NCBI GenBank assembly: GCA_029945945.1
Contig: JAQSDM010000011.1
Location: forward strand, 434,001-498,000
Length of the DNA: 64,000 bases
Direction: 5' to 3'
Source: Algoriphagus sp.
GTDB lineage: Bacteria > Bacteroidota > Bacteroidia > Cytophagales > Cyclobacteriaceae
Part shown: positions 35,381 to 57,136 of the stretch, piece by piece
Layout: each line of letters starts with the position of its first letter
Position numbering within the stretch: position 1 is the stretch's first letter
Made by a program: the position numbers and the translations under genes
Notes under the pieces: model-generated
What the model saw: the letters and a program-made list of their open reading frames with translations, nothing else
What the model was told of the DNA's origin: nothing
The model's database searches: none

Positions 35381-35504
35381 AAGAGCAAGTACGAGAATGC
35401 AGGGAAAAGATGCAAAGTCAGATCTACCCGAAATAATTACCCATCACTTACTAAATCCCATTTCTCATTCGTTTCCTTACTTTTGCAACGAAACAAAAAA
35501 CTCT

Positions 35505-35778
35505 ATGAAATCGAGCATGACGAATAACGTCACACGGAGGAATGATTATCCGAAATGCGAGATTCCATGTGGCCTTAAAGAAAAAATTATAAACACACGA
35601 AATCGAGCATGACGCAAGCGACACACAGAGGTATGACTCTAAATCCTGCGAGATTCCATCTGACCATTAAAAACAATTATAAACACATGAAATCGAGCAT
35701 GAAGCAAACGTTACACGGAGGAATGATTATCAGCTTTGTGAGATTCCATGTGGCCTTTAAAAATCAAATTATAATCAC
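35505..35778 (+). repeat. Three-copy 90-92 bp tandem repeat ending at the gldB start codon
   Basis: Units are 35505-35596 (92), 35597-35686 (90) and 35687-35778 (92). Each starts with A(T/C)GAAATCGAGCATGA, contains ACACGGAGG-like and GAGATTCCAT motifs and ends AATTATAA(A/T)CAC. The next unit would begin at 35779, where the gldB ATGAAA sits, so the array repeats the gldB upstream and start context. The spacing is direct, with no unique spacers, so it is not CRISPR. The core resembles REP-like intergenic elements of Bacteroidota. Confidence 0.85.
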
Positions 35779-35782
35779 ATGA
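35609..35782 (+). CDS. Possible 57-residue leader ORF made from repeat units 2 and 3
   Basis: ATG at 35609 opens a frame through the second and third repeat units. It stops at the TGA of 35780-35782, which overlaps the gldB ATG as ATGA. The peptide includes NPARFHLTIKNNYK and SFVRFHVAFKN, two versions of the same repeat. It could couple translation to gldB, but it may be only a by-product of the repeat. I see no family. Confidence 0.25.
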   Translation: MTQATHRGMTLNPARFHLTIKNNYKHMKSSMKQTLHGGMIISFVRFHVAFKNQIIIT

Positions 35783-36786
35783 AACTCAGCCGAATTTCAT
35801 TTATCCTTCCGATCCTGCTTTTTGCTTTTTCCTGCGGAAAAAAAACCGAGACCTGCGAACTCGATTCTGAAATTCTGAAATCGGATTTGAATCTGGAAAT
35901 CATCAGAGGCGAGGATGAGTTTTTCAACGCCAAAACTCAGGAAGATTTCCTGTTTCTTCTCGAGAAGCATCCTGAGTTTGCCAAAATCTATCTGCAAAAG
36001 GAACTCTATGGCGCTCCCGATTCTCTGGCTGCGGAATTATTGGCCATCCATCAGGACTCAACGATGCGCGTACTTTATGATTCGGTGAAAGTTGAATATC
36101 CGGACATTACGGAACTTGAAAAAGAACTGGAAAACGCCTTTAAATACATCAAGCATTATTTCCCGGATTTCAAGGTTCCGAAGGTTTACACGTTTGTCTC
36201 CGGATTCAATTCGGATTTAGTGGTCACCGAAGAGATCATCGTGATCGGGTTGGATTATTTTCTTCCTGCCACTCACACTTTTCAGCCTGATCTCGCCCGC
36301 TACATGGCAGATCGATATGAGAGGCCGTACATCGTGCCCATGATCGTGACGGCGATTTCATCCAGATATAATGAGATCAATCCTCAGGACAATACCCTGC
36401 TGGCAGAGATGATTTATTATGGTAAAGCATACCACTTCACCAAGGCGATTTTGCCATGCACATCCGATCAATACATCATTGGATACACAGAAAAAGAGAT
36501 TTCTGACAGCTTCGCAAACGAGGAACTGATCTGGGCGCATTTTGTGGAGAATGAGTTGCTCTATGAAACCAACCCATTTGAAATCCGGAAATACATCGGA
36601 GAGGCACCGTTTACAGATGCCATCAGCACCAATGCTCCGGGTCGTCTCGGAAGATGGCTAGGCTGGAATATCGTGGATGATTATCAGTTCAATGAAAATG
36701 TGGATCTGCCGACGCTGATGGCGAATAAGGATGCCGAGCAGATTTTCAGGCAGTCAGGATATAGACCGCGTCCTGCGAACCAGTAG
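35779..36786 (+). CDS. gldB: Gliding motility lipoprotein GldB
   Basis: 335-residue lipoprotein with signal MKLSRISFILPILLFAFSC, lipobox cysteine C19. The body matches the GldB family: FKYIKHYFPDFKVPKVYTF, VIGLDYFLPATH, PQDNTLLAEMIYYGKAYHF and the C-terminal GRLGRWLGWNIVDDY. GldB is a cell-envelope protein required for gliding in Flavobacterium, where it supports the GldKLMN-type machinery; it lacks a known enzymatic activity. The start is the ATG immediately after the tandem repeat. Its 3' end overlaps the convergent glycosyltransferase gene by 41 bases. Confidence 0.9.
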   Translation: MKLSRISFILPILLFAFSCGKKTETCELDSEILKSDLNLEIIRGEDEFFNAKTQEDFLFLLEKHPEFAKIYLQKELYGAPDSLAAELLAIHQDSTMRVLYDSVKVEYPDITELEKELENAFKYIKHYFPDFKVPKVYTFVSGFNSDLVVTEEIIVIGLDYFLPATHTFQPDLARYMADRYERPYIVPMIVTAISSRYNEINPQDNTLLAEMIYYGKAYHFTKAILPCTSDQYIIGYTEKEISDSFANEELIWAHFVENELLYETNPFEIRKYIGEAPFTDAISTNAPGRLGRWLGWNIVDDYQFNENVDLPTLMANKDAEQIFRQSGYRPRPANQ

Positions 36787-56820: not shown

Positions 56821-57107
56821 AAACCGGAAAGGTGAAAGTTGCTACTATAAAATCATTTGCCTAAAACTTAACTCGCCCTCAATCCGAAGAAAAACTGCTC
56901 AATCAAGGCCTACATGGTACTCCCTAAAATCATTACTTAATCATCCTATAATCCTAAATTTAACTAGAGGAGAAAAATACTGGATACTCATGATCAAAGG
57001 AAGAAAATGCCTTTCAAATACAATCTTGAGCTTGTTTTTCATTCTAAAGAAAAATCTCCTTTCATTTAATTTTTAAAGAATTATTTAAATTTTAATATTA
57101 AATGATA

Positions 57108-57136
57108 TTTAAACTATGATTAAAATCATGTTTAAA
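57108..57136. promoter_or_regulatory. Long AT-rich palindrome, possible operator
   Basis: TTTAAAC-T-ATGATT-AA-AATCAT-GTTTAAA: nearly perfect arms of 13 bases with one extra T. It lies between the SLC1 gene and the dcu gene, about 290 bases upstream of the dcu start, and could bind a regulator of the nitrogen/dicarboxylate genes. A poly-AT context allows chance formation. Confidence 0.35.

Follow-up and report, generated by a model that had tools for sequence, protein, structure and literature searches.

A ∼91-nt repeat at gene starts of Algoriphagus and related Cyclobacteriaceae, probably a mobile element, forms a three-unit array in front of gldB

Organization of the gldB upstream region

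In the window, that is, the whole 64,000-nt stretch of Algoriphagus sp. DNA that was analyzed, the ATG of gldB at position 35779 directly abuts an array of three repeat units (35505-35778; Table 1). The identity of GldB was confirmed with TIGR03514 (246 bits, cut-off 190), and its relatives in a homologue search are mostly from Algoriphagus. Tandem Repeats Finder reports the array with a score of 342 as one of two arrays in the 64-kb window; the other (57065-57113) is AT-rich and consists of two copies of a ∼24-nt unit. An earlier note, made from the sequence alone, had described three direct units of 92, 90, and 92 bases that end at the gldB ATG, an ATGAAA at the start of units 1 and 3 that is altered to ACGAAA in unit 2, and a 57-residue frame across units 2 and 3 whose TGA (35780-35782) overlaps the gldB ATG. 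All of these agree with our coordinates. The 57-codon frame exists because of the unit lengths, and nothing indicates a need for it.

Table 1. Coordinates of features around the array. x is the variable base of the internal motif CCATxTG, and y is the last base before the gene ATG.
Feature	Position	Strand	Length	Remarks
Native gldB leader	35480-35504	+		Now parted from gldB by the array
Unit 1 of the probable mobile element	35505-35596	+	92 nt	x=G, y=C
Guide-like segment of unit 1	35559-35574	+		GAGATTCCATGTGGCC; antisense to portions of both element ends
Unit 2	35597-35686	+	90 nt	First codon ACG; x=C, y=C
Frame over units 2 and 3	35609-35782	+	57 codons	TGA overlaps gldB ATG
Guide-like segment of unit 2	35650-35665	+		Two mismatches
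Unit 3	35687-35778	+	92 nt	x=G, y=C; directly 5' of gldB
Guide-like segment of unit 3	35740-35755	+
gldB	35779-36786	+	335 codons

By eye, the units display a small inner hairpin (TGACG..CGTCA) and lack a palindrome that spans the unit. We found no inverted repeats within the units (segment 35200-36200) and no Rfam matches up to E=5 (segment 35300-36000).

Dispersed copies at gene starts

We searched the host genome with R1, a sequence model built on 46 host units (alignment A1), and found 62 copies at 54 sites, seven of which are arrays of two or three units. R1 gave 66 matches, 62 with E <1e-6 and four weak ones with E >0.07, with the best 150 of 2010 candidates scored. A 90-nt consensus gave at least 48 matches when the best 40 of 61 candidates were scored. 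Because of the 62 copies, a chance origin of the repeat is excluded.

The usual layout of a site is a leader followed by ATGAAATCGAGC...CAyATGAAA, and 52 of the 54 sites are sense-oriented and coincide with a gene start. These include L035, counted as a start site, where the true gene start lies 5 nt beyond the ATG; L019 and L211 are the two sites away from gene starts. Reading the flanks of all copies, we found that the ATG after the last unit opens a frame of 40 or more codons at 51 of 54 sites. The same holds for a close relative (genome G058), where 22 of 25 inspected sites have a frame at the following ATG; one of the misses (L186) is truncated by a contig end, and the other two are apparently the counterparts of L019 and L211. 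The named genes downstream (GldB, GalE, MenB, and Pth, among nine scanned) are unrelated.

As a baseline, we used 364 kb of the host genome (the window plus fifteen 20-kb samples, with simple gene calls), in which 75 ATGAAA hexamers mark gene starts, 68 are intergenic, and 431 fall within genes. If gene-internal insertions were merely lost, about half of the copies would be expected off starts (75/143 non-coding ATGAAA), as opposed to the 52/54 observed at starts (Fisher p=4e-10). The excess persists if targets with A at -1 are disregarded (p=1e-8). The DNA target hexamer by itself thus leaves the gene-start excess unexplained. Four recently active genomes have 39 resolved sites, of which 32 coincide with starts and are in sense (p=0.003 versus the host baseline). 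Here, an array counts as one site, a frame needs 70 codons or more, and three unresolved sites are left aside; without G087, the tally is 31 of 37. The preference for gene starts is weaker there than in the host, yet present. Sites off gene starts are L019, L211, L290, L296, L298, L304, L311, L312, and L322.

Empty and filled sites in relatives

Eleven host sites have empty counterparts in G058 (a 2.9-Mb assembly of a Cyclobacteriaceae MAG); at each of them, the missing stretch corresponds exactly to the unit at the start codon, and none shows a target duplication. At gldB (L134, from the closest relative in the gldB comparison; GldB 94% identical), the counterpart of the native leader runs straight into the ATG. 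A second empty site is L189, the counterpart of L033. When 26 joined host gene starts were used as query against G058, ten matches were obtained, nine of which are empty sites (L002, L004, L009, L017, L021, L022, L025, L026, and L031; the left flanks of L022 and L031 have diverged), and the other 16 starts remained unmatched. The remaining match, the pair L018/L283, was set aside because its two loci are not orthologous. At nine other sites, both genomes carry the element, with one unit in the host versus two in G058 at L006 and L011. These comparisons indicate that insertion rather than retention accounts for the presence and absence of units.

Within the genus, R1 detects the element in 30 of 36 genomes including the host, several of them by a single weak match. 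Outside the genus, 1 of 22 genomes of the order has a match, and across the family (E up to 1e-4), 55 of 148 genomes, from 35 of 76 genera, have matches. Four or more matches are found in 29 family genomes (18 genera); the remaining matched genomes have one to three, which were left uninspected. Two single-contig genomes contain 138 and 99 matches, and G014 contains at least 74 copies. In G090, which belongs to another genus, the 8 copies of one 88-nt unit, spread over 7 loci with differing flanks, have the same sequence, and identity stops at the unit borders; therefore, the family has moved recently. G167 likewise holds one 91-nt unit that is identical at 5 loci with differing flanks. The phage records searched gave no match to the unit, the viral contigs searched held no copy, and the plasmids searched gave nothing beyond a 24-nt chance match.

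Two variants of the repeat were observed on the side. Five small-genome members of the genus (L068, L071, L072, L073, and L074) carry a single diverged copy directly before rpmJ and after infA, in which the ends and the guide are largely retained and the loop is changed, which may point to an old insertion or to a function that has been kept. A second subfamily (L218, L053, and L300), with left end TGAAATGCCCATGA and GGGCATTCCAT inside, is interspersed in the same arrays.

Pairing between the interior and the ends of the element

The internal motif TTCCATxTG is complementary to the right junction CAyATG. In the host, x and y are complementary in 40 of 46 units (unit 2 of the gldB array is among the six without the pair), and with 0.998 bits of mutual information they have double the value of the column pair that ranks next. 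Alignment A2 comprises 105 units from several species (106 references minus two units of L057 and one of L063, plus L070 and L218); here, x–y is a Watson-Crick pair in 90 units (GC 36, CG 29, AU 23, and UA 2), with 2 wobble pairs and 13 other combinations. Likewise, 61 of the 64 units with a readable motif (of 73) in the active genomes have the pair, and at the orthologous site L007/L185 the two genomes have opposite pairs, G-C and C-G. Units that are identical share y regardless of the sequence behind them, and y therefore belongs to the element.

A second helix connects the left end with the middle (AAATC..GC with GC..GATT) and is kept in relatives through two-sided changes (CCCGC/GCGGG in L070 and TGCCCA/TGGGCA in L218). 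The whole structure beats 500 of 500 shuffles, which do not remove relatedness, on all five measures. Compared with slid versions of itself, it stands out in cells paired (86% versus a maximum of 43%), in cells changed on both sides, and in covariation score, but not in pairs changed on both sides (15, equaled by one slide) or in pair types (45 versus 47). The distant L070 folds much better than its shuffles (z -5.2 and -4.5), whereas three of four folded elements do no better than theirs (z -0.1 to -0.8). For inner helix 5, whose changes look unconstrained, we make no claim. The covariation shows that the interior pairs with the ends, with a putative guide role for the internal segment; the same data would fit folding of either strand or molecule.

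Between the orthologous copies L007 and L185, and likewise L040 and L186, the guide base and the right end differ while the loops agree, as if right ends had been exchanged among copies. Many units contain extra palindromes of the CCTGCC..GGCAGG or CCCGA..TCGGG type inside the guide region (L193, L196-L199, L201, L213, and L214) and still terminate at an ATG.

Target and probable position of the cut

The most informative site is menB (L026). Its empty site reads TTGAAA, and the filled site reads TTGAAATCG...CAGATGAAA with ATGAAA on its right side. The leftmost base thus agrees with the target, and the right-hand A would derive from the element. This site and the right-flank variants, which include ATGACA and ATGAAT, place the cut at N/TGAAA (slash marking the cut; TTTCA/ on the antisense strand) and delimit the element as TGAAATCG...CAyA. 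We consider this position supported by one informative site and the flank variants; it relies mainly on menB because the left first base mutates too, as seen from L021 (TTG left in the filled site versus ATG in the empty one) and from orthologous copies with A in L029 and T in L177. Under such a cut, the moving part of unit 1 would be shifted by one base (35506-35597), and the ATGAAA of gldB is presumed to have been the target of the first insertion.

An A directly 5' of the target is found in 7 of 114 non-array copies, compared with 52 of 161 ATGAAA gene starts (p=8e-8; confident starts sampled from the host, G021, and G009 by a loose pattern scan used for the baseline only), and in 3 of 31 cases in the active genomes. 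No link was seen between guide base x and the base before the target. In G009, one copy (L081) is inserted in antisense at a TTTCAT within the 3' end of a Y1 transposase gene, away from a start; therefore, a short motif can suffice as target. With 150 of 237 matches considered, 40 of 72 sites in G021 and 28 of 62 in G009 are leading-oriented, compared with 30 of 51 and 33 of 49 ATGAAA-start genes in a hand tally (p=0.85 and 0.02, respectively; pooled 0.06, for orientation relative to the replication fork).

Proposed mode of movement

We tentatively propose, at somewhat less than even odds, that the element moves as a folded single DNA strand, guided by its internal segment and cut 3' of the antisense-strand TTTCA by a Y1-like transposase of the IS200/IS605 type that acts in trans. 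With the cut at N/TGAAA, the element would supply the gene with a new first base A. Its own left end would again present ATGAAA and hence a target, so that arrays could grow by further insertion. The genes would survive since neither promoter nor coding sequence is disrupted and an initiation region comes with the element.

We looked for the enzyme among the Y1 transposase genes. Two Y1_Tnp (RAYT-like) genes of the host carry other repeats, as judged by eye, and were rejected as the source of the element because these repeats are their own. One of them (L044:1200-2400; host C9:337473) lies between GGTCTGTGTCCTCACAGACC palindromes, and its own 3' end is repeated in tandem behind it; the other (L043:1200-2050; host C13:165951) is flanked by GTTCC...GGAACG repeats and represents a separate host REP system. 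A search for Y1_Tnp in G014, despite its high copy number, gave no match, and R1 detected a single copy on 31 Y1_Tnp loci, namely the insertion in the gene 3' end at L081. The Y1 genes of 34 + 5 genomes showed no link to the element, with 8 further Y1 loci scanned by short patterns alone. Half-elements around a gene, as in an autonomous copy, were absent from the best 150 of 2010 host candidates scored. Because the enzyme link is missing, the comparison with IS200/IS605 is one of element build and not of a shared enzyme.

Possible, albeit rather unlikely, is a broader reading, in which the repeat represents a family-wide class of elements whose target is the translation start itself. Such elements would use the internal guide and an enzyme outside IS200/IS605/RAYT, possibly on mRNA or on DNA opened by transcription, and each insertion would rewrite the start codon to ATG, replace the ribosome landing region, and re-create the target. 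In the parts of the open literature that we covered, a scope that takes in neither most subscription papers nor bioRxiv preprints, no published description of the repeat or of a start-codon-targeting element was found.

Movement on the RNA level, by copying or splicing into the exposed start region of other mRNAs and reverse transcription to DNA, would account at once for the sense orientation and the gene starts (52/54 in the host and 32/39 in the active genomes), and would also agree with the internal segment pairing with both element ends. However, we hold it to be improbable in view of the antisense copy in a gene end (L081), the several sites off gene starts, and the absence of an Rfam match.

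Possible effect on genes and translation

A coupling-like geometry is common (69/132) among full units, those in arrays counted too: in 35 of them, the stop codon of the upstream frame lies 4 nt 5' of the following ATG, and in 34 it overlaps this ATG. In the rest, the frame stops earlier (46 units), stays open (15 units), or stops 6-7 nt before the ATG (two units). Units with an early TAG exist in identical copies at 3-4 loci, and the upstream peptide is therefore not needed for spread; an essential upstream peptide is unsupported, as early-TAG units have multiplied.

According to work on initiation in F. johnsoniae, leader structure and A at positions -3, -6, -12, and -13 matter (PMC6847099). 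With the element, position -3 is C and the ATG can be covered by pairing; from these rules, an effect on translation is predicted as likely. One could ask whether the repeat is a host regulatory leader that is kept for translation control, in which a CAyATG hairpin sequesters the start codon and translation of the upstream frame opens it. The right helix indeed spans the start codon and covaries, the 69 units with coupling-like geometry would suit such a device, and the old rpmJ copy is retained in five species. Stops within the first 70 nt are also fewer in frame 0 (27/132) than in frame 2 (62/132), although this difference is partly one of composition (7 versus 10 one-step stops). Against these stand the unrelated downstream genes, the sites that differ between close relatives, the 46 units that stop the frame earlier, and the early-TAG units that are identical at several loci, which together make a regulatory origin quite improbable.

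Arrays as probable stacks of insertions

The units of the gldB array share an identity of 0.77-0.82 with each other; when the 60 other host units are ranked by similarity, the mates come 9th to 40th. For host array mates in general, the identity is 0.62-0.83 and the rank 6th to 59th of 60 other distinct units, with better matches elsewhere. Since array mates are not nearest relatives, the arrays look like the result of repeated insertion; the left end of the unit reads ATGAAA, and therefore every insertion re-creates the target in the same place. The arrays are thus best read as stacks of separate insertions. Local duplication or exchange occurs too, as indicated by neighboring units in G090 (L287) that are almost identical.

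Besides an amplified REP-like element, the earlier note had considered a gldB-specific device, either for translational coupling or for tuning gliding by copy number. The former stands in kind. The latter fails on the criterion that the note itself had set: the unit is dispersed through the host genome without a link to gldB, occurring at 53 other sites, nearly all of them before other genes, and a copy is missing from all 69 gldB loci retrieved from relatives (nhmmer; 29 + 40 loci, some genomes in both sets; eight genomes of the first set yielded no locus, and 38 loci of the second set were also searched with R1). Strict tandem duplication of the gldB leader by replication slippage as a copy-number tuner of gliding, for which the head-to-tail order of the three units would speak, is refuted by the closer matches of the mates elsewhere in the genome, the other host sites, and the copy-free gldB loci of relatives. 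Instead, we interpret the gldB array as a non-autonomous mobile element of ∼91 nt that inserted three separate times, a reading to which we assign a probability of roughly 0.75.

Significance of insertion at start codons

By landing at the start codon, the element leaves gene and promoter intact, and tens to over a hundred copies per genome thus become reachable. Each target has its translation initiation region replaced by that of the element. Bacteroidota do not use Shine-Dalgarno sequences according to PMC6847099, and the insertions would hence amount to a natural experiment in translation rewiring in such a phylum. The element might also be a source of a guide-directed tool for insertion at start codons. 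For annotation, caution is advised in this family, as upstream ATGAAATCG starts belong to the element and not to the gene.

Comparison with known mobile elements

The IS200/IS605 family is not known to have inverted ends or to leave target duplications. Strong subterminal hairpins at both ends and a bias toward the lagging-strand template are further traits of the family; of our four folded elements, L070 exceeded its shuffles and three did not, and the orientation counts of G021 and G009 compare with those of ATGAAA-start genes at a pooled p of 0.06. The element described here resembles the family in lacking inverted ends, in its precise insertion without target duplication, as seen at the eleven empty sites, and in inserting beside a short fixed target, as do the Y1 HUH systems IS608 and ISDra2 (PMC6006769, PMC8266576). 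IS200/IS605 transposases select their cleavage sites via guide sequences within the element (PMC6006769, PMC8266576), and an altered guide redirects insertion (PMC8266576); similarly, the internal segment of our element is complementary to its presumed cleavage sites, a likeness that concerns pairing as judged from covariation. In contrast to IS200/IS605, the element has no transposase gene inside or tied to it, one internal segment apparently serves both of its ends, it targets a start codon as read from the opposite strand, and its copies are just ∼91 nt long. The layout would work like the guide-and-target logic of IS200/IS605, a family of which the element is at most a candidate member.

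With REP/REPIN sequences and their TnpA-REP (RAYT) enzymes, the element shares that it is short, multicopy, non-autonomous, and presumably moved in trans. A tag (GTAG or CGTC) marks the short palindromes that TnpA-REP moves. REPs are described as palindromes of 21-65 nt that are largely intergenic (PMC6006769), or as 20-40 bp in length (PMC3733652), whereas our element is found at gene starts (52/54 host sites). MITEs of the DDE type are short non-autonomous mobile DNA as well, but the element has neither their terminal inverted repeats nor their target duplication. Rickettsia palindromic elements, selfish DNA of ∼150 bp at places that the gene tolerates, lie in frame inside coding sequence (PMC10969869). 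The element is comparably placed where the gene tolerates an insertion, which is here the start codon, in any frame.
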